From a virus, in the IMG/VR virus record IMGVR_UViG_3300031523_000001, positions 1-44,025 of that record: DNA of 44,025 nucleotides; one strand, given 5' to 3'. Position 1 is the stretch's first letter. Each line of letters opens with the position of its first letter. The notes beneath the pieces are model-generated. The model worked only from the letters and a program-made list of their open reading frames with translations, did not search any database and was not told the DNA's origin. Shown here piece by piece: positions 16,235 to 35,738 of this stretch. Both the position numbers and the translations under genes were made by a program.

Positions 16235-16236
16235 CA

Positions 16237-16245: not shown

Positions 16246-16249
16246 CAAT

Positions 16250-16305
16250 TTGCGCATCTAGGCTGATCCCCGAAAGCTGGAACTCCGACCAGTTGGTGCG
16301 CAATC
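16250..16305 (+). ncRNA. C4-like structured RNA, element A
   Basis: The closing stem TTGCGCATC (16250-16258) pairs with GGTGCGCAA (16295-16303), including one G-U pair. Then come TAGG (16259-16262), loop CTGAT, CCCCGAAA, and a hairpin GCTGG (16276-16280)/CCAGT (16289-16293) around loop AACTCCGA. The closing pair is followed by TC. It shares its skeleton with elements at 19437 and 35656 and 20 bases exactly with the latter, while both variable stems change compensatorily. The architecture resembles the C4 antisense RNA of phages P1/P7. It lies 32 bases before the HNH gene start. Confidence 0.65.
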
Positions 16306-16337
16306 CTTTCATTCGGTGGCTGCTATACGGTGATAGT

Positions 16338-17216
16338 GTGAAAATCTGCTCTGTTGAAGGTTGCGAAAAAAAGTTACACGTTAAAATTGGGTACTGCTCT
16401 ACTCATTATAGAAAGTTTCTAGCCCACGGAGACCCAGAAGGTGGACGGTCTGGGCCATCCCCCGGCGAACCTTTAGCTTGGATTGAGAGCGTTTTATCTA
16501 GCCATTCTTGTAAATGCTTGTTTTGGCCTTACGGTAAAAATAGAGTAGGAACTGGGTCGGTGCTCTGGAAAGGATCTTTAAAGACGGCTTACAAAGTTAT
16601 AGGCGAGCTTAGGCACGGGGAAGCTGAGCCAGGGGAAAGCTATTTCCACACGTGCGACAATCCTCGCACATGCTGCAACCCTAGCCATATTGTCTTAATG
16701 GACTGCAAGAATAGGAAGAGAAAATTAACCTCAGTCTGGAAGAAAGAAAACAAAGATAAAACTACCGTCCATAGTCGAGCCCAGTATTATAAAAACCCAG
16801 ACAAATATCGCCAATATTCAAAAGAATGGAAAAAAAATAACAAGGATTTGGTTAATGCAAAAGCAAGAGAATACAACAAGAATAGAGAGTCATATGATCC
16901 GCTTTACAGGCTTAGACGCAGGATTTCGGTGCTTATAAGGAACGGAATGGCGTCTAATGGGTTAAAGAAAAAAGGCACAAAAACGGATTCAATACTGGGT
17001 TGCACGATTTCAGATTTCAAGATTCACATTGAACGACAATTCCTTAAGGGTATGAGTTGGGAGAATCACGGGGGCTGGCACCTAGATCACATTGTTCCAA
17101 TTTCGTCAGCGTCATCAGAAAGTGAAATATACGGACTAAACCACCACACTAACTTCAGGCCGCTTTGGGCGAAAGATAATCTTTCTAAGGGCGCTAGAAT
17201 GGATTTCCTGATATGA
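16338..17216 (+). CDS. HNH homing endonuclease 1
   Basis: 292 residues from GTG 16338. An ATG at 16236 is rejected because the predicted promoter and RNA element lie downstream of it. The N-terminus holds a zinc finger (CSVEGCEKKLHVKIGYCSTH) and a second Cys cluster (HTCDNPRTCCNPSHIVLMD), followed by a very basic helical linker (about 130-220). The HNH core is WHLDHIVPIS...LNHHTNFRPLWAKDNLSKG. Such enzymes spread by cutting unoccupied alleles. It splits the head-tail operon between the minor head and tail completion genes and overlaps the latter by ATGA. Its A/T-richer, Lys/Asn-rich coding suggests later arrival. Confidence 0.85.
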   Translation: MKICSVEGCEKKLHVKIGYCSTHYRKFLAHGDPEGGRSGPSPGEPLAWIESVLSSHSCKCLFWPYGKNRVGTGSVLWKGSLKTAYKVIGELRHGEAEPGESYFHTCDNPRTCCNPSHIVLMDCKNRKRKLTSVWKKENKDKTTVHSRAQYYKNPDKYRQYSKEWKKNNKDLVNAKAREYNKNRESYDPLYRLRRRISVLIRNGMASNGLKKKGTKTDSILGCTISDFKIHIERQFLKGMSWENHGGWHLDHIVPISSASSESEIYGLNHHTNFRPLWAKDNLSKGARMDFLI

Positions 17217-17620
17217 GCTTTCAGCAAGACATACTGAGGTGGCAGCGTAAGGCTGAAGCCGCCATGACCGCTACCCTAAAGGACGCGGCTCAAGAGCTGA
17301 CTACAGATATGCTGACACCGAGGGCTAAGGGTGGGCGATTGGGAGTCGATACCGGAGCACTCCGAAACAGCTTTAATGGTGCAGTTAATTCGATTCCTAG
17401 AGGTCCATCAACGCCAGAGGGTCTGTCAACAGATTTTGATATGCAGCCACTTCTGCTGGCCATTAACCGTGTCAAGATTGGCGATAGATTGGCGATCGGT
17501 ACGGCCATGAACTACGCAAAATATCACGAATCTCAAACTGGCTTTGTTAGGCTAAGCGTTCAAAAGTGGCCGCAAATAGCCGAGAAGTCAGCACGTAAAG
17601 TTAGGAGGGCGGTAGGATGA
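17213..17620 (+). CDS. Tail completion protein (HK97 gp10-like)
   Basis: 135 residues. The N-terminal helix (QDILRWQRKAEAAMTATLKD), the central PRAKGGRLGVDTGALRNSF and late AIGTAMNYAKYHESQTGF are the familiar pattern of gp10-like proteins that complete the head-tail joint. It starts within the HNH stop codon and overlaps the next gene by ATGA, so expression is coupled to the inserted HNH gene. Confidence 0.75.
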   Translation: MSFQQDILRWQRKAEAAMTATLKDAAQELTTDMLTPRAKGGRLGVDTGALRNSFNGAVNSIPRGPSTPEGLSTDFDMQPLLLAINRVKIGDRLAIGTAMNYAKYHESQTGFVRLSVQKWPQIAEKSARKVRRAVG

Positions 17621-18009
17621 GCACCAATGACGAAATCTATACGGCACTAATAACGCTGCTCAATGACGCAGCGCTTGGCTACCCTGTAGGCTATCTAGGC
17701 TACAATTTCGAGCCGCCAGCATCCGGGCCATGGTTAGAGGTAGAGTTCTTTCCAGGCGAAGGCATAGACCGCGGCCTGCGCTATGAAGATGGGGTTTTGC
17801 CCCAAGGCATCTTCCAAGTTGGCGTTTTTGTCCGTCCAGGAGCCGGGGTTGATGAGCTCCATGCATTGGCAGATCAAATCAGAGTGGTCTATGCTAAAGG
17901 TACAGCAATAGTGGGTAGTGTTAGAGTGACGCGCACACCGTACGATATGCAAATCGAAGTAGACAGCGACCGATTGATGGTTGTTGTAACAGTGGAGTAT
18001 TCGGGATGA
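17617..18009 (+). CDS. Tail terminator protein
   Basis: 130 residues. N-terminal helix (NDEIYTALITLLNDAA), then PASGPWLEVEFFPGE, GIFQVGVFVRPGAGVDELHA, and a closing VVVTVEYSG strand. This matches small tail-terminator proteins (lambda U/DUF4128-like) that cap the tail tube. Gene order before the tube gene supports it. Confidence 0.75.
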   Translation: MSTNDEIYTALITLLNDAALGYPVGYLGYNFEPPASGPWLEVEFFPGEGIDRGLRYEDGVLPQGIFQVGVFVRPGAGVDELHALADQIRVVYAKGTAIVGSVRVTRTPYDMQIEVDSDRLMVVVTVEYSG

Positions 18010-18024
18010 AATGGAGGACTGATT

Positions 18025-18384
18025 ATGTTCGGCGAATTTAAGGTGCAGGCTGGCGACTTCGACACGATACGAAAAGGTAATTTCGTCTCAGGCAGCTTCT
18101 CTATGCCCAAAAAGGGAGCGATGATGGCCACCGATCTTTACCTGAAATCCCGAATCGAAACTCTCGAAGTGGCAAGCGAAGACTCTGTAAAGCGAGTTGG
18201 CGGAACGGCTGGCTGGGGCATTACTGGTGCAGTTCTGCTCGGCCCTGTCGGGCTTCTGGCGGGCCTTCTGGTTGGAGGCCGCGGGAAAGATGTAACGTTC
18301 ATCGTGAAGTTTGATGACGGCAAGAAAGCTCTGTGCACCGCTAGCAGAAAGCTGTACGCAAAGATGCAGTCGGCGATATTTTAG
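18025..18384 (+). CDS. Hypothetical protein with glycine-rich hydrophobic segment
   Basis: 119 residues. A charged first half is followed by a hydrophobic Gly-rich stretch (GWGITGAVLLGPVGLLAGLL, about 72-91) that resembles a glycine-zipper membrane segment, then GRGKDVTFIVKFDDGKKALC. Such proteins are more usual in bacterial chromosomes and cargo genes than in tails. It sits between tail terminator and tail tube and is followed by two terminators, suggesting an inserted accessory gene. Confidence 0.6.
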   Translation: MFGEFKVQAGDFDTIRKGNFVSGSFSMPKKGAMMATDLYLKSRIETLEVASEDSVKRVGGTAGWGITGAVLLGPVGLLAGLLVGGRGKDVTFIVKFDDGKKALCTASRKLYAKMQSAIF

Positions 18385-18508
18385 AGTGTAGCCTTATGAC
18401 ATAGAGCTTTAAGCGATGGACGATAGGCGGTTGGTGGTTGTGTCTGATGAGTATTCGGGTTAATCTACACTCACGACTCGTCGAGAGACGCTCGTTTTTC
18501 TTATCAAG
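18384..18508 (+). other. Gene-free stretch with long inverted repeat
   Basis: GAGTGTAG (18384-18391, including the final G of the preceding stop codon) is the exact reverse complement of CTACACTC (18465-18472), enclosing 73 bases. CGTC-GAGA-GACG and a T run follow near 18480-18500. It could be a folded RNA 3' end; no gene, tRNA or known motif is recognised. Confidence 0.4.
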
Positions 18509-18532
18509 GCCCTCTCATCGAGGGCTTTTTTT
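18509..18532 (+). terminator. Terminator before the tail tube gene
   Basis: GCCCTC (18509-18514), loop TCATC, GAGGGC (18520-18525), seven T. Confidence 0.85.
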
Positions 18533-18628
18533 GTTATAGAGAAATAATAGGTTATACTATCCCCTGCGGTTTCTAGAGCCACACTCGTCGTGACGACGAT
18601 ATTTTCCAAACGTTTGGAGTAATTTGAA
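18531..18628 (+). promoter_or_regulatory. Tail tube promoter and structured leader
   Basis: TTGTTA (18531-18536), a 16-base spacer, TATACT (18553-18558). The leader carries the perfect hairpin TCGTCG-TGA-CGACGA (18585-18599) and the palindrome CCAAACGTTTGG (18606-18617), whose end overlaps the GGAG ribosome binding site (18616-18619). The palindrome could mask the site or stabilise the message. Confidence 0.55.
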
Positions 18629-19078
18629 ATGAAGCAAACTTCCACAGGCGTAATTCTCTCAGTAGTCGCAGAGCTACCGGCTACTTTTGACCAAGTCGGC
18701 TATGAAGCCTTGACTTTTGTCGAGGTGGGTCAGCTTATAGATCTTCCGGAATACGGACCGACCGTAAGTGTAGTAGAATCCAACCCGCTTAAAACCGGAA
18801 TTACCGAAAAGTATGCAGGCTTTACGAACTTTGGCTCTCTGTCGCTTGGTCTTGAATGGGATCTTGCAGACGCAGGCCAAGTAATTCTGTCTGCGGCAAT
18901 CAACCCAGGCGGCGCGTTTGTGCCTCATTCCTTTAAAGTGCTTTACAACGACGGCACGATTGAATTCTTCCACGGCGGCGTATTCAGCTACACTCGCTCG
19001 GCGGGTTCGGCTAACTCAATGGTTGGTTCTACTGTACAGGTGGAAATCAACTCCGCTGTTATTAGCGTAGCAGTTTAA
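18629..19078 (+). CDS. Tail tube protein
   Basis: 149 residues: STGVILSVVAELPATFDQVG, FVEVGQLIDLPEYGPTVSVV, EKYAGFTNFGSLSLGLEWDL, PHSFKVLYNDGTIEFFHGGV. Length and the all-beta pattern fit the major tail tube (gpV-like) group. The gene has its own promoter and leader, consistent with high expression. No sheath gene follows, so the tail is non-contractile. Confidence 0.8.
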   Translation: MKQTSTGVILSVVAELPATFDQVGYEALTFVEVGQLIDLPEYGPTVSVVESNPLKTGITEKYAGFTNFGSLSLGLEWDLADAGQVILSAAINPGGAFVPHSFKVLYNDGTIEFFHGGVFSYTRSAGSANSMVGSTVQVEINSAVISVAV

Positions 19079-19089
19079 GGGGGTAAGTC

Positions 19090-19431
19090 ATGGCAACTAT
19101 CACAGCAACAAGTCTACAAGGGTCTGGCAGCCGGTCTGTAACGACGACTGTACTCGGAGCATCAGACACGTTCAGCTACCAGCCGGGTTCAATCCTGATG
19201 CTGAATAACATCACTGCCGGAGCCTTAACGCCCGTTATTGATGGGGCTGGCGGTACCACTGTTCCAGTTCGAGGCGTTGGCAGCGTTGACGTATCAGCGG
19301 GCTATGGCGTTCCATCAATTGGCGCGGGAGCTTCAGTGGCTATCCCTCTGGACTCGATCGCAAAGTACCTGAAAGGCGTCATTGCAGTTACGGGTGCAGA
19401 CGGTATTGAAGCGCAACTGCTAACACTATAA
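19090..19431 (+). CDS. Small structural protein after the tail tube
   Basis: 113 residues, rich in Gly, Thr, Ser, Val and Ala with no charged helices: MATITATSLQGSGSRSVTTT, GSILMLNNITAGALTPVIDG. Likely a beta-sandwich virion protein (tail or decoration). A GGGGGT run precedes its ATG. Its stop codon is shared with the -10 box of RNA element D. Confidence 0.6.
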   Translation: MATITATSLQGSGSRSVTTTVLGASDTFSYQPGSILMLNNITAGALTPVIDGAGGTTVPVRGVGSVDVSAGYGVPSIGAGASVAIPLDSIAKYLKGVIAVTGADGIEAQLLTL

Positions 19432-19436
19432 CCGTT

Positions 19437-19497
19437 TTGCGCTGGCTAGGATCGCATCCGAAAAGCGGGACTCATCCACCCGCCGGCCAGCGCAATC
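19437..19497 (+). ncRNA. C4-like structured RNA, element D, upstream of the tail chaperone
   Basis: A perfect ten-pair closing stem TTGCGCTGGC (19437-19446)/GCCAGCGCAA (19486-19495), then TAGG (19447-19450). Hairpin GGAT-CGC-ATCC (19449-19459) is followed by GAAAA. A second hairpin GCGGG (19465-19469)/CCCGC (19479-19483) has loop ACTCATCCA, and TC follows the stem. A TATAAC -10 box (19427-19432) ends four bases upstream. The loop base string TCATCC is complementary to GGATGA (19516-19521), which overlaps the ribosome binding site of the next gene; CATCC of the first hairpin can pair with GGATG at 19505-19509. This is the layout of C4 antisense RNA acting on its downstream message. Confidence 0.65.
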
Positions 19498-19527
19498 TAA
19501 AACTGGATGGAAAGAGGATGACTCGTT

Positions 19528-19938
19528 ATGAATGTTCTAAAGCAGTTTGATACCGTATCAGCAAGTGAAGAAGGTGCATGGCTACACCTATGTTCCCCTG
19601 GCACAGACGAAAAAGTCTACGCTGATGACAAACAAAAGAAGCCCCTGAGAATTAAGATGAAAGGCCCAGACAGTGATGTTTGGACAGCCTTCCAGCGTAA
19701 GGCAATCAAGTCTCAAGGCAGCAAGAAAGACGACCGCAGCCCTGAAGATGTTGCACTAGAAGACTCCAAACTATTCGCAAAGCTAACGACTGCATGGGAA
19801 AACATGCCGGCAGAAGTAGGCGAGCGAACCATTGAAAATGCGATCAAGCTTTATATCAACTATAAAGACATCCGTATGCAGGCTCTACGATTTGTAATGA
19901 ATCAGGAAAATTTTACACAGAAGCCGCCAGAGGCTTAA
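19528..19938 (+). CDS. Tail assembly chaperone, short form (G-like)
   Basis: 136 residues, ribosome binding site GAGG at 19514-19517. A mainly helical, acidic/basic protein (DVWTAFQRKAIKSQGSKKDD, NAIKLYINYKDIRMQALRFV). Position just before the tape measure gene and a slippery site near its 3' end identify it as the shorter of the two tail assembly chaperones. These bind the tape measure and recruit tube subunits. Translation may be controlled by the RNA element upstream. Confidence 0.85.
   Translation: MNVLKQFDTVSASEEGAWLHLCSPGTDEKVYADDKQKKPLRIKMKGPDSDVWTAFQRKAIKSQGSKKDDRSPEDVALEDSKLFAKLTTAWENMPAEVGERTIENAIKLYINYKDIRMQALRFVMNQENFTQKPPEA
19908..19914 (+). other. -1 ribosomal slippery heptamer
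   Basis: A AAT TTT in the frame of the short chaperone, of the X XXY YYZ type. The -1 frame is open from 19866 to 20387, so slippage here gives a long fusion. No stem-loop just downstream was established by eye. Confidence 0.8.
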
Positions 19939-20387
19939 AACTTTGGGCGGCTCAACTCGGGTGGCTTCATAGTGTACCCGAGCGCACACGAAAGACAGAC
20001 AGACGAAGCCGTTACGAGCAATACGGAGAAGGTCATCCATATTCAACCCTGCCAAGCACAGACGAACACGAATACATGGTGGGGCTTTTTATGGAGACGG
20101 GAATGGGGAGCCGCGCCGGCATGGGCGGTTTAACTCCGATTAGCTGGCTTGAGCTGCAATCATTTGACCAGTGCGGGCGGCTAGAGCTAAAGGCATGGGA
20201 GCTATCGCAACTGATGGAGATGTCGAGGTCTTACTGTCACTGGCAAGCAAAAGGCGGGCAACAGTCAGACATTGCCGATGATGTCCCTTACATAAACAAA
20301 GATTTAAGCGCGGCTGATTATTTATTAAGGCAGCGAGATGCAAGCGCAAAGAATGCAGAAGTGCCGAAACATGGTAAAATAGAATAA
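19914..20387 (+). CDS. Tail assembly chaperone, frameshift extension (T part of GT)
   Basis: The -1 frame continues after the slippery site with YTEAARGLKLWAAQLGWLHS and adds 157 residues to the first 129 of the short form, about 286 in all. An internal ATG at 20076 opens the same frame but lacks a ribosome binding site and would skip the conserved start of the extension. G and GT fusion chaperones made in fixed ratio are standard in siphoviruses. The extension includes SWLELQSFDQCGRLELKAWE. Confidence 0.85.
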   Translation, partial: YTEAARGLKLWAAQLGWLHSVPERTRKTDRRSRYEQYGEGHPYSTLPSTDEHEYMVGLFMETGMGSRAGMGGLTPISWLELQSFDQCGRLELKAWELSQLMEMSRSYCHWQAKGGQQSDIADDVPYINKDLSAADYLLRQRDASAKNAEVPKHGKIE

Positions 20388-20410
20388 CGCAATAATGGGA
20401 GCTTGCCGAA

Positions 20411-23221
20411 ATGGCCGCATCAATGGCTGATCTAGGATTTAATATTAATTCCGACCCATTGCGGCGGGCTACTCGTGAGCTAAACGGATTAAGTCAAGGT
20501 GCTGGACGCGCCGAAAGATCCAACAGACAACTTTCTGCGGCAAGCACTGCGTTGAAAGCGGCTTTAACCGGTGTCATTGCCTCTATCGGCGTGCGCGAGA
20601 TAATCCAGTACGCCGATATCTGGCAGAACGTTGCTAACCAGTTGCGCCAAGTTACAAGCGGAACGGCAGAGCTTGAGGCTATCCAAGTAAGGTTGGGCAA
20701 TGTCGCAAATGACACTCGGGCGAGTTTTGAATCAACTGCGAATCTGTACGCTAGGCTGGCAAGGTCGTCAACAGAGCTTGGGCTGTCTCAATCAGACTTG
20801 ATCGGTCTAACGACAACGATTAATCAGTCGTTTGCAGTATCTGGCGCGACCGCTGCAGAGACGGCAGCGTCTATTACTCAGTTGTCGCAGGGCTTGGCTG
20901 CCGGGGCGCTGAGGGGCGAAGAGTTCAACTCCGTATCAGAACAGGCTCCTGCACTTATGCGGGCCATTTCCGATAGTCTCGGGATGACAATTGGCGAGCT
21001 AAGGGCATTCGCAGCTGAAGGCGGCATCACCGCAGAAATTGTGGTTAAAGCCCTGCAGCAAGCATCTGAAGAAATTGACCGAAATTTCAGCAAAACCATT
21101 GCCACGTTCAGCCAAAACATTGAAGTAGCAAACAATAAAGTTCTTGAGTGGGTTGGCACAAACAGCGCCATATCGGAGTCTGTGGGTACCGCTGGCGCGG
21201 CCATTGTTTTGCTGTCGGACAACATCGACAACTTGGTGAACGTTGCCGGTGCCGGATTAATTGTGTTCGCGGCAAGGTTCGCAAGCGGAATGACGTCTGC
21301 AACCGCTGCCGTCATTGCAAACCAGGCGGCAACCATTAGAGCAGCACAGGCAACCGTTACGGCAACTGCCAGCGAGGCTGCATACCTGAGGGTTGTGCAG
21401 GGCTCTCTTGTTGCAGAGATGGCTTCAACAGCAAGCACAACTCGAAAGATTGCACTGCGCCAGCAGTTGGCCGCAAACACTGTTGCGCTAATCGCTGTTC
21501 AGAATTCATACACGGCAGCCCTGTCTGCCAGCACGGTAGCAGCCCGCGTATCAACCGTGGCGATGACCGCGGCTCGCGGTGCAATGGCGTTTCTTGGCGG
21601 CCCCGTTGGCGTCGCGCTGATCGCTGCCGGATCCCTGTACTACTTTCGTGATGCGCTGTTTGCGACGGACGTAGCGGCGTCTGACGCGGAAAAAGAAGTC
21701 CGTAAGATGGCTGAGTCCATCGGTGAGATGACCGTCGCCAAAACCGCAGCCCAGATGCAGGATCTGAATGAGCAGATGGCAGAGAATGCTATTGCTACGG
21801 CTACGGCGCGAGCGGAGCTTGACCGACTTCGGGAAAAGCAAAACGAAAGTCCCGCTACGCTCAAGGGTATCCCAAGTTCCGCAACCATCGACGTCTCAAA
21901 AGTAGAAGAAGAGCTCGCAGTTCTTGAAGCTACCGGCAAGGCCATGACAGAGGTTTACGACACGCTGCAGGATCGTCGTGACCAGTTGGCCGACGCCGCA
22001 GAAGAGAGTAATAAAAGACAGGCTCAAAGCGCCTCCGACGCCGTACAGAAAATAATCGACAGCCTAGATGACGAACTGTTTCAGCTGGAAGAAGGCGACA
22101 GGGCTTGGCTTGTTCGGCGGCTAAGCCTACAGGGTGCAACTGGTGATCAGATAAAATACGCGCTTTCGGTTTACGACGCCATAGACGCAGAGGAGGCGGC
22201 TATAAAGCAGGCTGAATCTCTGGCAGATATGCGTGAGCAGGCTGACCCGGGAATGGCTGAATTCAATCGTTATGCTGATCAGCTTGACCAGATTGAGGCG
22301 TATAATATTAGCGCTGCCGAGAAGGAGAGGCTTAGGGAGTTTCAGTTTTCAGACCATACGGCACGGATGATAGATATTGCCGCCGAAGGGGTAAGTAAGC
22401 GCTTCGAGGTAGAAGAGACTTATTGGCAGCAGTGGATGGAGTCAGCCGAAAGAAATCTGACTAATTTTGATGATCTCTCCAAAACGGTGATCGACAATTT
22501 CACTAGCAGTTTTGGAGACGCATTTGAATCCGTAATATTGGACTCAGAGAACACCGAAGAAGCGCTAAAGGGATTAGCGCGAACCATGATCAGGTCGGTA
22601 GTCAACGCTATTGGTCAAATGATTGCGCAGTACGCGGCACTCCAAGCGCTGAAAATGCTCGGCATCGGCGCAGAGACTTCCGCTGTCGTGGCGTCCGAGG
22701 CTACTAAATCTGCGGCCAGCGTTGCCGGGACTACTGTTGCGGCTTCGGCCAGCATTGCCGCGACCACAGCCACTACCACTGCACAGGTCGCAGCAGCAGG
22801 TACTACGGCTGCCGCATGGTTACCGGCTGCACTGGTGGCCTCGATCGGTTCGTTTGGTGCAGCGGCGGTGGTCGGTGGTGCCGCGCTGGTCGCCGCTTAT
22901 GCGCTGATAGGCGGCAGCTTTGAGGGCGGCGGTTACACGGGCAGCGGACCACGCTCTGGCGGTCTGGACGGAAAGGGCGGGTTCATGGCCATGATGCACC
23001 CACAAGAAACCGTCGTAGACCACACCAAAGGCCAAAGCACTGGCGGCGGCAGCGGGACTGTGATAAACATCAACAACGCGCCGCCAGGCACCCGCACGGA
23101 AGAGCGCACAGACAATAAGGGCCGACAGGTGGTTGACGTATTTCTGGCTGACATATCAACTGGAGGGCCAATGTCTAAAGCTATGCAAGGCACATATGGA
23201 CTCAAAAGGCAGGGACGATAA
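20411..23221 (+). CDS. Tail tape measure protein
   Basis: 936 residues. The N-terminal region holds the tape-measure pattern (TSGTAELEAIQVRLGNVAND, GLAAGALRGEEFNSVSEQAP, about 80-200). Hydrophobic segments occur near 275-300 and 390-410 (GPVGVALIAAGSLYYF). A coiled-coil region follows (about 430-600), and an Ala/Thr-rich hydrophobic C-terminal part ends with GGFMAMMHPQETVVDHTKGQ. Length sets the tail length. It overlaps the next start codon by one base. Confidence 0.93.
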   Translation: MAASMADLGFNINSDPLRRATRELNGLSQGAGRAERSNRQLSAASTALKAALTGVIASIGVREIIQYADIWQNVANQLRQVTSGTAELEAIQVRLGNVANDTRASFESTANLYARLARSSTELGLSQSDLIGLTTTINQSFAVSGATAAETAASITQLSQGLAAGALRGEEFNSVSEQAPALMRAISDSLGMTIGELRAFAAEGGITAEIVVKALQQASEEIDRNFSKTIATFSQNIEVANNKVLEWVGTNSAISESVGTAGAAIVLLSDNIDNLVNVAGAGLIVFAARFASGMTSATAAVIANQAATIRAAQATVTATASEAAYLRVVQGSLVAEMASTASTTRKIALRQQLAANTVALIAVQNSYTAALSASTVAARVSTVAMTAARGAMAFLGGPVGVALIAAGSLYYFRDALFATDVAASDAEKEVRKMAESIGEMTVAKTAAQMQDLNEQMAENAIATATARAELDRLREKQNESPATLKGIPSSATIDVSKVEEELAVLEATGKAMTEVYDTLQDRRDQLADAAEESNKRQAQSASDAVQKIIDSLDDELFQLEEGDRAWLVRRLSLQGATGDQIKYALSVYDAIDAEEAAIKQAESLADMREQADPGMAEFNRYADQLDQIEAYNISAAEKERLREFQFSDHTARMIDIAAEGVSKRFEVEETYWQQWMESAERNLTNFDDLSKTVIDNFTSSFGDAFESVILDSENTEEALKGLARTMIRSVVNAIGQMIAQYAALQALKMLGIGAETSAVVASEATKSAASVAGTTVAASASIAATTATTTAQVAAAGTTAAAWLPAALVASIGSFGAAAVVGGAALVAAYALIGGSFEGGGYTGSGPRSGGLDGKGGFMAMMHPQETVVDHTKGQSTGGGSGTVININNAPPGTRTEERTDNKGRQVVDVFLADISTGGPMSKAMQGTYGLKRQGR

Positions 23222-23688: not shown

Positions 23689-23777
23689 GCAATAACGAAA
23701 TAATCGACATGGCCATTAACTGGCCGCAACGTTACGCAGTGATCGACCTTGCGCTGTGCAAGTGGTGGCCTGCATGA
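23685..23777 (+). CDS. 30-residue coupled reading frame
   Basis: It starts by ATGA overlap with the previous gene and ends by ATGA overlap with the next. It reads MSNNEIIDMAINWPQRYAVI and ends DLALCKWWPA. Two segments (EIIDMAINWPQ, AVIDLALCKWWPA) repeat the last residues of the upstream tail protein (IIDIALNRNWPEA), so it looks like duplicated tail sequence kept open to pass ribosomes on. A real short peptide is possible. Confidence 0.45.
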   Translation: MSNNEIIDMAINWPQRYAVIDLALCKWWPA

Positions 23778-27277: not shown

Positions 27278-27307
27278 ACAAGCAAACGATTCACAGAGGT
27301 TTACTGT

Positions 27308-29206: not shown

Positions 29207-29207
29207 C

Positions 29208-29276
29208 ATGGGCAGAAATACTGGACAGCTAAGAGAGTACGTAATCAGGTCGGTATTGCACCGGCTAGGAGGTTAA
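29208..29276 (+). pseudogene. 22-codon remnant, LREYVI-type phage protein
   Basis: An open frame starting one base after the tailspike stop: MGRNTGQLREYVIRSVLHRL then GG. The string LREYVI...VL..LG recalls the start of a recurrent phage protein (LR.YVI.PTL..LG) that normally runs beyond 100 residues. Here it stops after GG, exactly at the AGGAGG that serves the endolysin gene. It may be a truncated relic or a leader peptide. Confidence 0.4.
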
Positions 29277-29744
29277 ATGCAACTTGAATATTTCAGCGCA
29301 GAAGAATTCAGAGACTGGTCAGACGAAATGTCACCTAGGCTTCTGACAATGCTTGACGTGCTACGCTACCAGCTTGGTCGGGCAGTCATTATCAGCCCTA
29401 ATCTTAAAAGCTTGGGCCGTAACCTTGGGCGTGACGACATGTCCGCTCATAACATTGACCATTGGGGGGAGGTATTGGCGGTTGACTTCTTTGTTGATGG
29501 CGCGACACACAGGGAGGCAGTGGAAGATGTTGCGCACAAAATGAAGCTGATTGGATTTACGGGCATTGGCGTGTATTCTGATACGCATTACCTTGACGGT
29601 CCTCACCCAATGTTCCATGGTGACGTAAGGCCGAACGAAAATATGGGCGATCCGGCAACATGGGGTCGCGTTGAAGGAAGGTACACCAGCCTAATGGCTG
29701 CAATTCAATCTGTTAAACCTGGAGTTGATAATGGAAACCAATAA
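29277..29744 (+). CDS. Endolysin, peptidase M15-like
   Basis: 155 residues behind AGGAGG. Metal-binding candidates are SAHNIDHWGEVLAVDFF (H58 or H62 and D70) and a late HYLDGPHPMFHGDVR (final H-x-D), the order seen in M15A D-Ala-D-Ala-type peptidases used as endolysins. No signal peptide, so release would depend on the holin encoded next. The 3' end overlaps the holin gene. Confidence 0.78.
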   Translation: MQLEYFSAEEFRDWSDEMSPRLLTMLDVLRYQLGRAVIISPNLKSLGRNLGRDDMSAHNIDHWGEVLAVDFFVDGATHREAVEDVAHKMKLIGFTGIGVYSDTHYLDGPHPMFHGDVRPNENMGDPATWGRVEGRYTSLMAAIQSVKPGVDNGNQ

Positions 29745-29928
29745 AGAATGGTATAAGTCAAAGACAATCTGGGGCTCAATCGTTGCGATCCTGGCGCTCG
29801 TGGCTGGGGCATTCGGTTATAGTGTTGGGCAAGAAGCACAGGCCGAGATAGTGAGCGCAGCCATTGGTGTTGTTGGTGGCCTGTTTGCGATCTATGGCCG
29901 GGTCAAGGCTGTGGAAAGCGTAAAGTGA
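29731..29928 (+). CDS. Holin-like membrane protein
   Basis: 65 residues from ATG 29731 (GGAG seven bases upstream). Two hydrophobic helices: IWGSIVAILALVAGAFGYSV and EIVSAAIGVVGGLFAIYGRV, separated by a short polar turn, with a charged C-terminus. Size, topology and position between endolysin and spanins indicate a two-helix holin. Confidence 0.75.
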   Translation: METNKEWYKSKTIWGSIVAILALVAGAFGYSVGQEAQAEIVSAAIGVVGGLFAIYGRVKAVESVK

Positions 29929-30140
29929 TTGATAGAGTAATCTACTTGCTGGCGGCGCTTATGCAGGCCGTCAAGCGGGCATTACGCAAGAAAGAGCAAC
30001 GCGAGGCCCAGAATGAGCGCGATCAGATTGACTCGGACTCTGCTCAGTACGCTGCTAATAAGTTTGGCGATGGTCGGGTGCAGCGGATCGATGCCGACAA
30101 AGCCGACGACACCGAGCGGCCTGACGGTGATGGCCGGTAA
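29925..30140 (+). CDS. Inner-membrane spanin (Rz-like), short
   Basis: 71 residues, GTG start coupled to the holin stop. A hydrophobic N-terminus (VIYLLAALMQAV) is followed by a highly charged helix (KRALRKKEQREAQNERDQ) and an Asp/Arg-rich tail. It is short for Rz, but the o-spanin gene is embedded in it in another frame, which is the diagnostic arrangement. Confidence 0.6.
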   Translation: MIDRVIYLLAALMQAVKRALRKKEQREAQNERDQIDSDSAQYAANKFGDGRVQRIDADKADDTERPDGDGR

Positions 30141-30228
30141 TGGTATGGTGTGTTATTCGGAGTCTGATAATGCTCAGCTGATGGTTTATATTCTTGAGCT
30201 TGAACGCGGCTATAATATATTGCAATGA
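30013..30228 (+). CDS. Outer-membrane spanin lipoprotein (Rz1-like)
   Basis: 71 residues, in the +1 frame relative to the Rz-like gene and overlapping most of its 3' half. The signal peptide LLSTLLISLAMVGC ends in a lipobox with C23 as the lipidated residue. The proline/threonine stretch SMPTKPTTPSG after it is typical of Rz1. Together with the Rz-like protein it would fuse inner and outer membranes at lysis, so the host has an outer membrane. Confidence 0.75.
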   Translation: MSAIRLTRTLLSTLLISLAMVGCSGSMPTKPTTPSGLTVMAGNGMVCYSESDNAQLMVYILELERGYNILQ

Positions 30229-30234
30229 ATAAAA

Positions 30235-30243
30235 TGATATAAT
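30235..30243 (+). promoter_or_regulatory. Extended -10 promoter
   Basis: TGA TATAAT between the spanins and the DUF3761-like gene; no clear -35. Confidence 0.45.
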
Positions 30244-30289
30244 CTGGCCAACTTATACTTAACACACCGACACGCAGCAAGGGCTTAAC

Positions 30290-30775
30290 ATGCCAGGAAA
30301 TGAAGACATGGCCGATATACATGAAAGAGTGGGGAAGTCTGAACAAGAGTTTCATACTTTAAGTTATCGCGTTCATCGACTTGAAGAATGGCCCCCGCGT
30401 GTTACAGATCTTGAGCGCACAGTTCAGGACTTAAATAACAATATGCATCACCTACAAGTCGCACAAACCGAAACTAGAGACGAAATGCGTTCCGGGTTTG
30501 AGGCTATTAAAGAAGAAATTAAAACCGGCTTCAGAGAATTTAGAGCGTCGGCAGATTTAAACCAGGGGCGTCGGGTAGGTTTGTCCAGAGGCTTCCAGAT
30601 AGCAATTGTCGTGCTTACAATCGGCGGTGCTGGTGCGGGCGGTTTGTTGTGGTGGAATGAGCAGCCAAAAGAAACGGTTAGCATCTCGGCTAAATGCAAG
30701 AACGGTACGTATAGCGAAAGCCACGGCCAGGGAACTTGCTCTGGCCATGGTGGTGTTGATAAATGGATTAATTGA
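30290..30775 (+). CDS. Coiled-coil membrane protein with C-terminal DUF3761-like domain
   Basis: 161 residues. Residues 1-90 form a coiled coil (HERVGKSEQEFHTLSYRVHR, DLERTVQDLNNNMHHLQVAQ). One transmembrane helix follows (FQIAIVVLTIGGAGAGGLLW, about 103-122). The last 30 residues (CKNGTYSESHGQGTCSGHGG then VDKWIN) match the short cysteine/histidine DUF3761 motif of exported proteins. The motif would lie in the periplasm. Placement after the spanins suggests an envelope role late in infection, or superinfection exclusion. Confidence 0.7.
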   Translation: MPGNEDMADIHERVGKSEQEFHTLSYRVHRLEEWPPRVTDLERTVQDLNNNMHHLQVAQTETRDEMRSGFEAIKEEIKTGFREFRASADLNQGRRVGLSRGFQIAIVVLTIGGAGAGGLLWWNEQPKETVSISAKCKNGTYSESHGQGTCSGHGGVDKWIN

Positions 30776-30824
30776 GGTTATCTTGTCAGATCCAAAATCG
30801 CTGAAAGCTATACCTTTCCTTCGC

Positions 30825-31025
30825 TTACCGATGGTTTCGACTGTACACGCTGTACCACCGCCCATCCCACTTGAACTCTAGATAACCCTTCGTCTTTACG
30901 ATGTACTTAGTGACCATCGCTACACAGACGACTCCGAGCAGTACGCCGAGCATAAAGACCCCGCTAATTAGTCCTATCATCATTATGCGCCCTCCCTCGG
31001 AGCTTTCACACTTTGATGGGCTCAT
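30825..31025 (-). CDS. Small single-helix membrane protein
   Basis: 66 residues from ATG 31025, which overlaps the upstream stop by ATGA behind GGGAGGTGG. A second start at 30983 with its own GGGAGG would give 52 residues beginning MMIGLISGVFMLGVLLGVVC. Either way the protein has one transmembrane helix and a basic/aromatic cytosolic or periplasmic tail (YLEFKWDGRWYSVYSRNHR). It is the last gene of the minus-strand cluster. No family recognised. Confidence 0.6.
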   Translation of the reverse strand: MSPSKCESSEGGRIMMIGLISGVFMLGVLLGVVCVAMVTKYIVKTKGYLEFKWDGRWYSVYSRNHR

Positions 31026-31420
31026 ACACCACCTCCCGCCTTGTCGGCCACAATTTCGCAGTCATCATCATGCCCGCAGTCATTGCACTGTTCGCAATGC
31101 TCACAAAGAGGCCACTTGCCTTCGTATTCTGCCTTGCCGCACATAGCACAGCGGTCGTCACCTTCCATTATCCAGCCCATTTCTCGGAAAATAAAATCGT
31201 CCCAAATAATGTAGGCACCGGTTCGGCCTATTTTTTCAAACAAATGGTCATGCTCAGGCGCTCGAATAACGCGAGCACTCATATATTCTCCATCGCACTC
31301 GTCCGAAAGGTTGCCGTATTTCCACAGGATTCGTTTTGCCTCCTTTACGTTCGATGCAAAGCAAGCGGCGACAAAATCAGATTCGCCTGGCTCAGTCGAG
31401 CCCCCGTAATAGCATTTCAT
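31022..31420 (-). CDS. Cysteine-rich putative zinc-binding protein
   Basis: 132 residues. The first part (STEPGESDFVAACFASNVKE, AKRILWKYGNL) and YIIWDDFIFREMGW are of unknown fold. The C-terminus has paired Cys motifs CAMCGKAEYEGKWPLCEHCE and QCNDCGHDDDC, a likely zinc ribbon. Coupled to both neighbours by ATGA. Confidence 0.65.
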   Translation of the reverse strand: MKCYYGGSTEPGESDFVAACFASNVKEAKRILWKYGNLSDECDGEYMSARVIRAPEHDHLFEKIGRTGAYIIWDDFIFREMGWIMEGDDRCAMCGKAEYEGKWPLCEHCEQCNDCGHDDDCEIVADKAGGGV

Positions 31421-31944
31421 TGAACGCCTCCCGCCTTGCCGGCCCCATCCTGAAACTCACTCTCCTGAAGCACTGACGCATCCGCCGTTATAGCCGCACG
31501 AGCAAGGACTCTGGCCAACTCATCGGGCATGAAGTTTTCAAGGTTGCTCAGTTCGCGGTTAAACAGTCTGCGGAAGTATCTCATATCCAGGCCGTAGCGA
31601 TTCGTTCCGCGTTCATCCGGCATCACGGCGCTGTACTCCTGTGCTCGGGCTGCCTGCTCAACAGGCCCAGCAACGCAATCATCAAGCCACGTAACTCGGC
31701 CTAAGTTGTGCACCGCTGCCAGTCCACCGGCTTCGTTCTGGACTAAGAAGCCAACGGGCTTTCCGATCTGTTTTGTTTTGCTATGGCACAGTGCTGTGAA
31801 CTGCGGGCAGTTGATCTGCCATGCCCACCACATTCCGTCAAGAATTTCATCTACATAGTCCCCGCTTGCTGCCCGCTTTAGGCTGTAGCTGTCGCTCCAT
31901 GTTGCCGTTACTGTGCGCTCGAATGTTTCTCTGCTATCGCTCAT
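31417..31944 (-). CDS. Hypothetical phage early protein (175 aa)
   Basis: ATG 31944 (MSDSRETFERTVTATWSDSY) is taken as the start. The body includes DEILDGMWWAWQINCPQFTA and a C-terminal ELARVLARAAITADASVLQE. Proteins of this composite pattern are common in early clusters of phages of Gram-negative bacteria. No catalytic motif is seen. Confidence 0.6.
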   Translation of the reverse strand: MSDSRETFERTVTATWSDSYSLKRAASGDYVDEILDGMWWAWQINCPQFTALCHSKTKQIGKPVGFLVQNEAGGLAAVHNLGRVTWLDDCVAGPVEQAARAQEYSAVMPDERGTNRYGLDMRYFRRLFNRELSNLENFMPDELARVLARAAITADASVLQESEFQDGAGKAGGVQ

Positions 31945-31945
31945 C

Positions 31946-32389
31946 TTAGTAATACCCCTCGCAAATCCCAAAACTAACCACCGGTGCCGTCAAGAACCGG
32001 CGAACATAATCCACTTTCTCGCTGGCTTTCGGCGCAGCTTCTTTGAACAGTCCATAGCTCCCAATCGCACGAATGCGCCCAATTTTTATGCCCGTATCCA
32101 GCGATATAGCGCGGGCGTTGTCAACAGCGGATAGAGATTCGTATTTCTTTCGCTGGTCAAGGTCAATCTTGATAGCCTTCAGCGTTTCTACAGAGATCTC
32201 CTTAGATGGGTTTCGGCATGGCACAAACTCATATCCGCGACGTGCCAGGCGGTAGATGGTAGCCTTGCTGACGCCGTGTTTCTGGCCCAGAACCTCATCG
32301 CTAAGGTCTGCGGCCAGAGTAGCGTATGAGCGGCTCAGGGCGTATCGTGTTTCGATGTATGCGCGTAGTTCTGGGGTGATCTTGCTCAT
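31946..32389 (-). CDS. HTH-domain protein
   Basis: 147 residues. Two HTH-like segments: RSYATLAADLSDEVLGQKHG with VSKATIYRLARRGYEF (residues about 22-52), then a charged helical C-terminal half. A DNA-binding role is inferred. It starts in an ATGA overlap and ends one base before the next start codon. Confidence 0.6.
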   Translation of the reverse strand: MSKITPELRAYIETRYALSRSYATLAADLSDEVLGQKHGVSKATIYRLARRGYEFVPCRNPSKEISVETLKAIKIDLDQRKKYESLSAVDNARAISLDTGIKIGRIRAIGSYGLFKEAAPKASEKVDYVRRFLTAPVVSFGICEGYY

Positions 32390-32715
32390 TTGTTTTTCCT
32401 TTCAAACTGCGCGGCTTCTAGCAGTGGGGCGGCTTCAACAATCTCTTCAATAACCTTAGCAAGCAGCAGCCCCATCTTGTGCGTGGTGTCTTTGCTTGGG
32501 TAAACGGTGTGCTTGTAAGTCAGTTCTGGATTTTTATTAATCATCCAATCTGCCACAAAACCACAATCTATCTGCCATCGATCATTAGGGCCAAAGATCA
32601 AATCGTAATCTTCGCCCTCAAGTATCGCCTCCTCAATCTCTAGCCCAATCGTTTCAGCCCGCGCCTCAATTTCTGCGGCGTCGTCAATATATTTCTGGTT
32701 CTGTGCTGCGTTCAT
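32386..32715 (-). CDS. Hypothetical acidic helical protein (109 aa)
   Basis: N-terminal acidic helices (YIDDAAEIEARAETIGLEIE, EAILEGEDYDL), then RWQIDCGFVADWMINKNPEL and another helix (LLLAKVIEEIVEAAPLLEAA). Unknown function; part of the coupled minus-strand cluster. Confidence 0.55.
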   Translation of the reverse strand: MNAAQNQKYIDDAAEIEARAETIGLEIEEAILEGEDYDLIFGPNDRWQIDCGFVADWMINKNPELTYKHTVYPSKDTTHKMGLLLAKVIEEIVEAAPLLEAAQFERKNK

Positions 32716-32716
32716 G

Positions 32717-33007
32717 TTACGGATTCCTTGTTGCGTGTGGGTAGCTGTTGGGGCAGAAGCCTTCTGAGTTCATCTGCATATCAAGTCTGTCTGAAGGCTT
32801 CCTAAATCTCTTATGGGAAGTAATCTGTCGGCATTCCCAGAAATAAACTGGTATTAATTTGTATACCGCTTGAAAAGCCGTGTTAAAGGCATCATCTTGC
32901 ACGGCTGCTTCGTGCTTCCATGCGTCATCTGGAGTATTCACATTACCCAAAACAGCCCGCCACTTAGTCATAAACGCCTTATACTCTTTGCGTGTCATTT
33001 GCTGCAT
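32717..33007 (-). CDS. Hypothetical protein (96 aa)
   Basis: The start at 33007 (MQQMTRKEYKAFMTKWRAVL) is preferred because AGGAG lies nine bases upstream. An alternative ATG at 32998 overlaps the upstream stop by ATGA. Helical and basic N-terminal half, aromatic middle (VYKLIPVYFWECRQITSHKR). No family recognised. Confidence 0.55.
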   Translation of the reverse strand: MQQMTRKEYKAFMTKWRAVLGNVNTPDDAWKHEAAVQDDAFNTAFQAVYKLIPVYFWECRQITSHKRFRKPSDRLDMQMNSEGFCPNSYPHATRNP

Positions 33008-33168
33008 TCAATATCGCTCCTGTAATCCGGCCAGCCAAACTCGCCGTTGGTGTCTTTGTGAATCTGTCGCATGTCGCAATAAATGCGGGCCTGGTAGTCG
33101 TCTGGCTCGCTAAAAATAAGCGCCAAAAGAACAATGCCAACTGACATGCCCATGACGAACTTAAGCAT
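32995..33168 (-). CDS. Small membrane-anchored protein (57 aa)
   Basis: ATG 33168 behind AAGGAG with a seven-base spacer; the longer frame from 33192 lacks a site. One N-terminal transmembrane helix (MLKFVMGMSVGIVLLALIF) followed by a soluble tail with two cysteines. No family recognised; overlaps both neighbours. Confidence 0.6.
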   Translation of the reverse strand: MLKFVMGMSVGIVLLALIFSEPDDYQARIYCDMRQIHKDTNGEFGWPDYRSDIECSK

Positions 33169-33367
33169 CTGACTGCTCCTTGCAGAGTTCAAGCGCGGCT
33201 GTCCGGGTGATCATGTCCAGCAGACGGCGGTTGCCTTGCATAGTATTGCGTAGCGCAATGGGGAAAGCTTCGTTCTTAGCGACTCTGCGAGCCACGTCTT
33301 CGAAAATTATTGGAAGGTCGCAAAAGCCTGTGTCGATTAGCTTTTGCGCTTGCTCTTTGTAGTCCAT
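33161..33367 (-). CDS. Hypothetical small helical protein (68 aa), first of the minus cluster
   Basis: MDYKEQAQKLIDTGFCDLPI with following helices (FEDVARRVAKNEAFPIALRN). GGAG upstream. It is the first gene after the divergent promoter at 33398-33427, so it is likely expressed early. Function unknown. Confidence 0.6.
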   Translation of the reverse strand: MDYKEQAQKLIDTGFCDLPIIFEDVARRVAKNEAFPIALRNTMQGNRRLLDMITRTAALELCKEQSDA

Positions 33368-33397
33368 GCCGTTCTCCGTTCCGTTGTTGATGTGCTA

Positions 33398-33427
33398 ATA
33401 CTAATCCTTCTCTAATCGCTTCGTCAA
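33398..33427 (-). promoter_or_regulatory. Promoter of the 33367-30825 minus cluster
   Basis: On the minus strand TTGACG (33427-33422), an 18-base spacer, TAGTAT (33403-33398). Three CTAAT direct repeats (33395, 33401, 33412) overlie the -10 and spacer and could bind a regulator. Confidence 0.6.
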
Positions 33428-33429
33428 GC

Positions 33430-33458
33430 TTGCTTACACTTTTATTCACGTTCATACT
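33430..33458 (+). promoter_or_regulatory. Promoter of the 33488-35631 plus cluster
   Basis: TTGCTT (33430-33435), a 17-base spacer, CATACT (33453-33458), divergent from the preceding promoter. Confidence 0.5.
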
Positions 33459-33487
33459 GTGGGCCTTGGTAACGAAAGGAGAGGAAA

Positions 33488-33742
33488 TTGGAAACTATAG
33501 AAGAAGTGCTAGAACTGGCGAGGCTGTCCAGGGTTACGATTACGGAGGCTTGCAGGTGCGCTGGCGTCAGCAACAACACTATTAGCAGGTGGCGTAAGGG
33601 AGTGCAGGCTAGGCCTGTCAAGTTCTTTGCGTTTCGGAATGAGGTAATAACTTTGGCATTTGATCAAAACGCATTGCCAGTTAGGAACTATCGAGAAGCG
33701 CACAAACTTGGCGTACGCAAACTTTTGGAGATGATGAAATGA
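33488..33742 (+). CDS. Small HTH regulator
   Basis: 84 residues. TTG start at 33488 directly behind AAGGAGAGG. The helix-turn-helix is SRVTITEACRCAGVSNNTIS with recognition helix NTISRWRKG (about 13-38), followed by a basic tail. Its place beside two divergent promoters makes it a candidate regulator of that switch. It overlaps the next gene by ATGA. Confidence 0.7.
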   Translation: METIEEVLELARLSRVTITEACRCAGVSNNTISRWRKGVQARPVKFFAFRNEVITLAFDQNALPVRNYREAHKLGVRKLLEMMK

Positions 33743-34251
33743 ACAAAAGACTAGAATTTCTTGCGAGAAAAGTTTCTGAGTGGCGGGAGCTGATGGGCGC
33801 GAGCACAACGGTGCTTATCTGGAACGACAGACTGGGCGGGCCCGAGTGGCTTAATCTGAAATACTTCCCAGACAGCGACGGCATTACGCGGGAGCAATGG
33901 CAAGCCGCCCGCAATGAACTTGGCCTCCTAAGCCCATTCATGACGCCCGAGGAGGAAGCGCTACCTGCAACAGAATACAGGCGCACTGCCGAGCAATTCC
34001 TATTGCAAGCTGGCAACCTGTTAACCGAGCGCGGTAAGCAATACGACCAGCCTGCAGGGGAGCGCAGCATGGGGCGCACTGTGGAGGCGTTCAACGCCAT
34101 TACTGGATATGACATGAGCGAGGCTGAAGGGTGGCTGTTTATGAGCATCATTAAGCGCGTCAGGCAGACTAACGGGTACCACAAGGACAGCGCAGAGGAT
34201 GCTGTGTCTTATGCGGCGCTGGAAGCTGAAGCACTGGAGCGTGGGTTGTGA
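33739..34251 (+). CDS. Hypothetical protein with MazG-neighbour-type C-terminus (DUF6378-like)
   Basis: 170 residues. The C-terminal 80 residues (LLTERGKQYDQPAGERSMGR, TVEAFNAITGYDMSEAEGWL, IIKRVRQTNGYHKDSAEDAV) form the recurrent phage domain with an R-G-K-x-Y-x-x-P start and a DS.ED....A end. The last part recalls metal-binding helices of nucleotide pyrophosphohydrolases, but the full EExxE set is missing. The family name is tentative. Confidence 0.6.
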   Translation: MNKRLEFLARKVSEWRELMGASTTVLIWNDRLGGPEWLNLKYFPDSDGITREQWQAARNELGLLSPFMTPEEEALPATEYRRTAEQFLLQAGNLLTERGKQYDQPAGERSMGRTVEAFNAITGYDMSEAEGWLFMSIIKRVRQTNGYHKDSAEDAVSYAALEAEALERGL

Positions 34252-35027
34252 TTAAATTAATGCAAGGTGATTGCTCAAAGGTGATGGCGGATATTACAGA
34301 TTGTAGTATTGACCTGACAGTGACTAGCCCTCCATACGACAACCTGAGAGCTTACAACGGCAACAACGAACAATGGGGGGAGCATGTATGGAAGGCGGTT
34401 CTTCAGGAGTTATACCGAGTCACTGCCAAGGGCGGGGTTGTGGTTTGGGTAGTTGGTGATGCGACTATAAAAGGAAGCGAAACCGGCACGTCATTTCGCC
34501 AGGCTCTTTGGGCTATGGAGTGTGGATTTAACTTGCACGACACAATGATTTACCAAAAGGCTCAGGCTTGTTTTGGGTCAAACAAATGCTACCTTCAGGC
34601 ATTTGAATACATGTTTGTATTTAGTAAAGGGGCCCCGAAAAGCCTGAACTTCATCCGAGACAGGAAAAACGTGCGGGGTGGCGTCAAGGAAAGCACGGTC
34701 CGCAACGGGCTAAAGCCGTGCGGTGAAAAATCAGATCGTGTATACAAAACAGCGGGTGAATTTGGAAAACGGAAAAATATATGGGAGTACGGCGTTGGCG
34801 GGGGGTCCACGGGTCATCCTGCGGTATTTCCTGAAACCCTAGCCCGCGATCACATTATAAGCTGGAGCGGCGAAGGTGACACTGTCTTAGATCCATTTAT
34901 GGGCAGCGGAACAACCGGCGTAGCTTGCGTCAACGCGGGCCGAAAGTTTACAGGCATAGAGCTAGATCAAGGCTATTTTGATATTGCAAAAAAACGTATT
35001 AATGAATCTTTAGAGGCTAGAGTATGA
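34248..35027 (+). CDS. DNA methyltransferase (N4-cytosine / N6-adenine type)
   Basis: 259 residues, GTG start in a GTGA overlap. Catalytic motif IV TSPPYDN (about 28-34) precedes the SAM-binding motif I DPFMGSGTTG (about 217-226): the beta-class order. A FVFSKG strand and a central target-recognition region of about 100 residues lie between them. No restriction gene adjoins, so it is probably a solitary phage methylase that protects phage DNA from host restriction. Confidence 0.9.
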   Translation: MIKLMQGDCSKVMADITDCSIDLTVTSPPYDNLRAYNGNNEQWGEHVWKAVLQELYRVTAKGGVVVWVVGDATIKGSETGTSFRQALWAMECGFNLHDTMIYQKAQACFGSNKCYLQAFEYMFVFSKGAPKSLNFIRDRKNVRGGVKESTVRNGLKPCGEKSDRVYKTAGEFGKRKNIWEYGVGGGSTGHPAVFPETLARDHIISWSGEGDTVLDPFMGSGTTGVACVNAGRKFTGIELDQGYFDIAKKRINESLEARV

Positions 35028-35215
35028 GCGACATAATCGACATAGCAAACGAAACAGCAGAATGGCAGCGGGCAATGGGGATCAGGGAGGCGCTGTTTAA
35101 TGCGCGGAAGTTGCGGCCTATTCGGCGGTGTTATAACTGTGATGAGCCGCTGGATAGTGGGCTGTATTGTGACAAAGAATGTGGGGATGACTTTGAGAAG
35201 AGGATTGGCAAGTGA
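35024..35215 (+). CDS. Small zinc-finger protein (DksA/TraR-like)
   Basis: 63 residues. A helical N-terminus (IIDIANETAEWQRAMGIREA) precedes RRCYNCDEPLDSGLYCDKEC, a four-cysteine zinc finger of the DksA/TraR phage type. It may bind RNA polymerase; that is inferred from the family. Coupled to both neighbours. Confidence 0.72.
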   Translation: MSDIIDIANETAEWQRAMGIREALFNARKLRPIRRCYNCDEPLDSGLYCDKECGDDFEKRIGK

Positions 35216-35631
35216 CCATCAAAATAAAACTCCTACACCAGTACGAAACCCAACCCACACGTGGCACAGAAGGCAGCGCGGGGTTCGATCTGTACGCAAC
35301 TGAGAACCACACCGTATGGCCTGGCGCTCGTGTGAAGATACCGACAGGGGTATCGCTTGGCATCCCTGCCGGTTACGCGGGTTTCATCTGGCCACGGTCT
35401 GGGATGGCGATTAAGTACGGGTTTGATATTCTAGCAGGTCTAATTGACGCGGATTTTACGGGAGAAATTATGGTGGCGGGCATGAACCACGGCGACCAAT
35501 CTATCGAGATCCGGCGCGGTGAACGTGTGGCGCAGATTGTGTTTAGTCCGGTTAATGTGCTGTGCGAGATGGTGCAGGAGTTGGATGATACGGATAGGGG
35601 TTCTGGTGCGTTTGGCTCTACTGGGGTTTAG
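35212..35631 (+). CDS. dut: dUTP diphosphatase
   Basis: 139 residues. The trimeric dUTPase motifs are all visible: SAGFDLYA (motif 1), WPRSGMA (motif 2), GLIDADFTGEI with catalytic Asp (motif 3), RRGERVAQIVF (motif 4) and the C-terminal RGSGAFGSTG (motif 5). It removes dUTP to keep uracil out of phage DNA and supplies dUMP. GTG start coupled to the zinc-finger gene. Confidence 0.95.
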   Translation: MTIKIKLLHQYETQPTRGTEGSAGFDLYATENHTVWPGARVKIPTGVSLGIPAGYAGFIWPRSGMAIKYGFDILAGLIDADFTGEIMVAGMNHGDQSIEIRRGERVAQIVFSPVNVLCEMVQELDDTDRGSGAFGSTGV

Positions 35632-35641
35632 CCAGACGTTG

Positions 35642-35650
35642 TGATACAAT
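35642..35650 (+). promoter_or_regulatory. Extended -10 promoter of RNA element B
   Basis: TGA TACAAT shortly after the dut stop; the RNA closing stem starts five bases later. Confidence 0.55.
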
Positions 35651-35655
35651 TTTTC

Positions 35656-35709
35656 TTGCGGCTAGGCTGATCCCCGAAAGCACATACACCCGGATGTGTT
35701 GCCGCAATC
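35656..35709 (+). ncRNA. C4-like structured RNA, element B
   Basis: Closing stem TTGCGGC (35656-35662)/GCCGCAA (35701-35707), then TAGG, CTGAT, CCCCGAAA. Hairpin GCACAT (35680-35685)/ATGTGT (35694-35699) surrounds loop ACACCCGG; TC follows. The first loop equals that of element A base for base, while the closing stem and second hairpin have changed on both sides. Downstream, loop segment ACCC could meet GGGT of the ribosome binding site near 35729, but this is only four pairs. It precedes the PAPS-reductase-like gene. Confidence 0.65.
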
Positions 35710-35738
35710 AAAAAACGGGCTTGTTACAAGGGTAAACA

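Follow-up and report, generated by a model that had tools for sequence, protein, structure and literature searches.

Three int-alpA-type RNA elements with loops complementary to two downstream sites precede unrelated genes in a 44-kb virus record

The stretch of DNA analyzed here, called the window, is the whole 44,025-nt virus record IMGVR_UViG_3300031523_000001, for which we found no closely related named phages. Its + strand carries three three-way-junction RNA elements, each in front of a different kind of gene. Element 1 (16250-16303) precedes a gene for an HNH/endonuclease VII-like protein that begins with GTG (16338-17216; PHROG 1035 and 3593), element 2 (19437-19495) precedes a tail assembly chaperone gene (19528-19938; PHROG 313), and element 3 (35656-35707) precedes a PAPS-reductase-like gene, a phage accessory gene (35739-36503; PHROG 424, E = 1.3e-37). 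In element 1, the closing stem P1 (16250-16258/16295-16303) is followed by TAGG/CC helix P2, by CCGAAA, and by P3 (16275-16280/16289-16294), which carries the loop AACTCCGA (16281-16288). Element 2 has P1 at 19437-19446/19486-19495 and P3 at 19465-19469/19479-19483 with the loop ACTCATCCA (19470-19478); element 3 has P1 at 35656-35662/35701-35707 and P3 at 35679-35685/35694-35700 with the loop ACACCCGG (35686-35693). The order given in the preliminary description (stem, TAGG, hairpin, CCGAAA, hairpin, stem) is present in all three, and its positions held for each of them; the end of element 3 was corrected to 35707.

An exact search for the core CTAGG-N7-CCGAAA hit the window three times, always at one of the elements and always on the same strand, whereas the reversed control gave no hit. 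We then built a covariance model that excluded the window and its relatives, using 30 elements found in other phages, and its matches in the window were exactly the three elements and nothing else, starting at 16251 (46.4 bits, E = 1.7e-8), 35655 (41.7 bits, E = 2.3e-7) and 19439 (36.3 bits, E = 4.6e-6). This left-out model also recovered the element copies of two relatives of the window, L300 and L301, and gave a weak match to the copy in a third, L299 (E = 0.025). RNAfold returned the same three helices in each of elements 1, 2 and 3, with stability z-scores of –1.7, –3.65 and –1.3, respectively, so that single-sequence stability alone would be insufficient proof of the elements.

The elements had previously been taken for C4-type RNAs. 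When the Rfam C4 model (RF01695) was run over the window, it matched nothing up to E = 10, while it recovered its positive controls, the C4 RNA of phage P1 (68.8 bits) and the CI RNA of phage P4 (74.9 bits), and we conclude that the elements are not C4 RNAs. By sequence and predicted structure they belong to the int-alpA-type RNAs (Rfam RF02996). Element 2 scored 47.5 bits with the RF02996 model, above the curated cut-off of 35.8 bits, and element 1 fell just below it (32.7 bits, E = 0.0047); element 3 escapes the Rfam model, with no match up to E = 10. All 14 family loci that we sampled matched RF02996 at E < 0.5, nine of them above the cut-off, and we therefore regard the elements as int-alpA-type RNAs. 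The three-way junction, its CUAG...CGAAA core and the complementarity of the 3' tail to the P3 loop were all evident from alignment and covariation, and the Rfam consensus, with a loop of CCuU and a tail of AgGG that is included in the model, holds the same complementarity. None of the window elements lies at an integrase-alpA location, the genes behind them being of the HNH, tail chaperone and PAPS-reductase-like types; that location is the source of the family name and not a structural criterion. The many C4-like sRNAs described in Acinetobacter (PMC5320573) belong to a different family by their reported Rfam match. A hammerhead-like core (CUGAU...CGAAA) in one subgroup was rejected, as the loop varies to UAGC, UCGC, CAUU and others.

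Pattern scans of viral contigs and bacterial genomes, filtered for structure in Python, yielded at least 226 distinct family elements. The initial broad scan gave many chance matches, so only structure-checked elements were used; the listed matches are samples, and frequencies among them are not estimates of abundance. Among these matches, the genome records were mostly of beta- and gammaproteobacteria, and the few matches in other phyla may reflect binning errors or chance. An alignment of 103 distinct copies had 97.3% of its cells paired, and both sides change in 12 of the 14 pairs. The covariation score was 0.83, against 0.17 for shuffled alignments; the alignment was itself fitted to the structure, but the score drops to about 0.1 when it is slid. 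Helices 1 and 3 covary strongly across relatives, which bears out the earlier observation of closing stems and second hairpins that vary and yet stay paired. Across viruses of diverse bacteria, the C-TAGG and CCGAAA segments and one closing pair hardly change, in contrast to the freely varying loops and helices. The window carries three copies and the other virus records one or two each (at least 50 records among the matches listed). The "unusually broad deployment" that had been proposed for this genome thus stands as to copy number; the placement before unrelated genes is normal for the whole family. One group of phages of about 45-50 kb (L124, L133, L129, L140, L158 and similar) has one or two elements per genome with a near-identical core, and an HNH-type gene stood behind the element wherever that gene was read.

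Of 220 elements among the matches listed, 201 are followed within 80 nt by a Shine-Dalgarno sequence (SD), a start codon and an open frame. For 88% of the 220 elements this arrangement lay 20-45 nt downstream, compared to 5.8% of random positions drawn from the same loci. The upstream gene usually ends near the element (median 17 nt). Among the matches listed, the downstream genes were mostly accessory, with HNH proteins (about 20 of 109) followed by antirepressors (KilA-N, Rha, AntA and P22_AR_N) and AP2-domain proteins and, further, by T5orf172-domain (GIY-YIG-type) proteins, methyltransferases and DUF6387 proteins. Few were structural (the major capsid gene in L275, a head morphogenesis gene in L242 and a tail chaperone gene in L085).

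The preliminary description had placed a –10 box 4-5 bases before each stem. We recovered this for element 1 (TACAAT, 16240-16245, + strand, with TGT just before it and ending 4 nt before the stem) and element 3 (TACAAT, 35645-35650, + strand, with TGA just before it and ending 5 nt before the stem). The candidate for element 2, TATAAC, shares bases with the upstream stop codon and is less convincing; a promoter there is doubtful. Across the family, a strong –10-like hexamer was present in 36 of 206 distinct upstream sequences, compared to four in a control stretch. In 20 of these 36 it ended 6 nt ahead of the stem, the most frequent spacing, from which we infer that transcription would begin at the closing stem. 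The original proposal of a promoter-proximal structured RNA family in front of unrelated genes is supported. Several terminator-like hairpins were also seen in the window. One at 18500-18580, which resembles an intrinsic terminator (CCCTCTCATCGAGGG and then T), is located past 18384 and ahead of the major tail protein gene at 18629, with a TATACTAT stretch coming shortly after it; together these suggest that the tail genes are on a separate transcript. Two strong ones, at 2050-2081 behind a primase-like gene and at 36520-36550 behind the PAPS-reductase-like gene, gave weak Trp_leader/isrK matches below the cut-off, and the latter would end the element-3 cassette, making it a separate unit of transcription.

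Comparison with relatives bore on the mobility of the elements. In L299, the neck gene directly follows the head-morphogenesis gene, and the HNH gene and element 1 are both absent, which suggests that the two were inserted together as a single cassette (about 16235-17212). An element also precedes the chaperone homologue in L299 and the chaperones at the same place in L300 and L301, so that element 2 appears to be conserved and fixed at the tail-chaperone position. The PAPS-reductase-like and dUTPase-like genes had no match in the relatives, and no syntenic comparison therefore bears on the insertion of element 3 with its gene. A more distant relative has at the tail-chaperone position (L306:3266-3335) CTAGG, a long GC-rich hairpin and CCGAA with no evident P1 or P3, which may be a decayed or a different leader.

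Our central new result, a feature absent from the preliminary description, is a family-wide complementarity between the P3 loop and two segments downstream of it. Site 1 mostly starts 6-11 nt past the closing stem, and site 2 mostly lies 6-9 nt beyond site 1, at or adjoining the SD of the next gene. In the window, on the + strand, element 2 has the longest potential pairings, with 6 bp between the loop and both site 1 (TGGATG, 19504-19509) and site 2 in the SD region (GGATGA, 19516-19521). The loop of element 3 can form 4 bp with CGGG (35716-35719) and 4 bp with GGGT in the SD region (35730-35733). That of element 1 can form 4 bp with TCGG (16313-16316) and only 3 bp with CGG near the SD (16328-16330), the weakest of the three.

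To compare loops with their own and with other flanks, we de-duplicated loops and downstream flanks before permutation, leaving 105 non-redundant elements, although related ones among these are not fully independent. The longest complementary run between a loop and its own site-1 region averaged 4.26, compared to 2.72 (sd 0.08) when permuted, and that between a loop and its own SD region averaged 4.65, compared to 3.44 (sd 0.08), excesses of about 19 and 15 sd, respectively. Both sites reached at least 4 bp in 67 of the 105 elements, against 13 in permuted sets and a maximum of 23 in 1000 permutations. Upstream and coding sequences used as controls gave runs of 3.0-3.1, and when permutation was restricted to loops of equal length and C content the excess was still 11 and 9 sd. 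As far as these comparisons of sequence go, the loop matches to both sites are gene-specific. Close relatives showed the same on a smaller scale. L321 has the loop CACCCC with the sites AGGGGG and GGGGTG, and its close relative L393 has CACCTC with AGAGGG and GAGGTG, a triple compensation; loop and both sites likewise change together between L133 and L129. At the tail-chaperone position, the loops of the window, L299, L300 and L301 are all different, and each matches its own site 1.

The geometry of the site-1 pairing was also consistent across elements. In 62 of 74 cases the match to site 1 runs right up to the loop's 3' end (41% when permuted), usually leaving two to three free bases on the 5' side. 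Flush pairing at the 3' end of a loop with free 5' bases is the standard geometry of an H-type pseudoknot, here one stacked on P3. The linkers are U/C-rich, with 3% G, and P1 length was inversely correlated with linker length, a measurement that is partly confounded and does not serve as proof. Some family members, such as L218, have kept site 1 and lost site 2.

We think it fairly probable, from these sequence patterns, that the elements are cis-acting int-alpA-family 5' leaders that control translation of the gene directly behind them. Transcription would start roughly where the closing stem begins and the mRNA would thus open with the three-way junction, and the P3 loop would then pair with either site 1 or site 2. 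Pairing with the SD would block the ribosome, whereas pairing with site 1 would form an H-type pseudoknot coaxial with P3, removing the loop and leaving the SD open. The balance between site 1 and the SD would set a low or conditional output, and the core would stay constant while the loop is re-matched to each new gene. We consider site 1 somewhat likelier to be a decoy that gives the ON state than a second repressing contact as in C4. Regulation through base pairing, as originally claimed, is probable, and the gene-specific complementarity of the loop to two downstream sites supports it. Some observations count against a leader of this kind: in the window, elements 1 and 3 have only short pairings (3-4 bp), site 2 is lost in some family members, the promoter of element 2 is doubtful, and simple SD masking would not require a core (TAGG...CCGAAA) as strongly conserved as this one. 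In addition, the same complementarity would be expected of an RNA that is cut from this transcript and acts in trans.

Such an RNA, a C4/CI-like antisense of about 55-60 nt that, once released from the leader, targets site 1 and the SD of further copies of its own mRNA, seems to us rather unlikely, as does the outcome that it would entail, autorepression or immunity against a related phage. The annotation of phage P1 does show the same layout (C4, a2, and b2 at the icd SD), the CI RNA of P4 acts in trans on seqA and seqC (PMC4825925), Rfam types int-alpA as an sRNA gene, and the specificity of each loop for its own gene would fit. However, nearly all elements have a gene at a fixed distance and there are hardly any orphans, the pseudoknot geometry favors pairing in cis, and a processing signal or terminator after the stem was not identified. 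The loops of elements 1 and 3 also have no match of more than 6 nt at any other gene start in the window. An action of the window loops on other phage genes was likewise rejected for element 2, whose only 7-nt match, at 17617, overlaps a start codon and not an SD. C4 is an analogue in layout and not the same family. The C4 RNAs of P1 and P7 and the CI RNA of P4 also have a closing stem with two hairpins, and their targets follow closely, with the second one at the SD of the gene behind; antisense complementarity of this kind, a C4 trait, is seen here as a likely functional analogue. In the C4 of P1, by contrast, the separate segments a' and b' pair with a2 and b2, whereas here one loop matches both sites; the core is distinct, the upstream a1b1 element is missing here, and processing by RNase P in P1 contrasts with an apparent start at the stem.

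The conservation of the core raises the further prospect that the three-way junction binds a small molecule or a phage or host protein, which would set the choice between site 1 and the SD. A core that hardly changes from virus to virus although loops and helices do, and two mutually exclusive pairings resembling an expression platform, speak for such a sensing leader, but the downstream genes have no common metabolic theme and a tight junction fold could account for the core without a ligand; we rate this reading below the trans-acting antisense RNA. Least of all do we expect the elements to be only a stable 5' end, a paired start protecting the mRNA from decay with loop-SD complementarity as a by-product of C-rich loops. 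The stem would indeed begin at +1, but the complementarity is gene-specific even in composition-matched permutations, and compensatory changes separate close relatives, making this explanation highly improbable.

The cis-acting leader that we favor resembles known regulators in part. The preQ1-I and SAM-II riboswitches are compact H-type pseudoknots that mask the SD, and the pseudoknot proposed here would be similarly compact and able to cover the SD; the elements differ in having a second, competing site and a three-way-junction core, and have no known ligand. RBS-sequestering structures have been described for the phage homing endonucleases I-TevI, I-TevII, I-TevIII and SegB of T4 and MobE of Aeh1, in which a promoter-linked RNA structure controls the RBS of a free-standing or intron endonuclease gene (PMC2988022). 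Those hairpins are gene-specific, whereas a single conserved module is shared here by many types of gene, and the SD would be hidden by the proposed pseudoknot. As for int-alpA RNAs themselves, the scanned family loci match or nearly match RF02996 in sequence and structure. Rfam types that family as an sRNA, whereas in our set it precedes genes of the HNH, antirepressor, tail and capsid types, and we add two loop-matched sites, one of them at the SD.

We know of no mechanism for RF02996, and the leader model offers a testable one. Because the module unites promoter, structure and SD, it would travel with cargo genes and leave each under a control of its own, which would account for unrelated cargo (homing-type endonucleases, antirepressors and accessory enzymes) arriving with ready-made expression control, the same control being fixed before the tail chaperone. 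The occurrence of the same RNA before many different phage genes probably reflects portable on/off control of translation. More tentatively, int-alpA RNAs may act widely in phages and satellites as a portable translational switch with two states, in which the loop chooses between decoy and SD and the junction core serves as sensor or timer. The module is about 90 bases long, its base pairing can be rewritten, and it is amenable to study in a reporter strain. Elements also stand before DUF6387 and other genes in satellite-like E. coli islands (L189, L192, L193, L210, L235 and L248). At least 212 E. coli genomes carry such an element, and their natural alleles, differing in the loop and both sites, form a ready-made set for reporter work.
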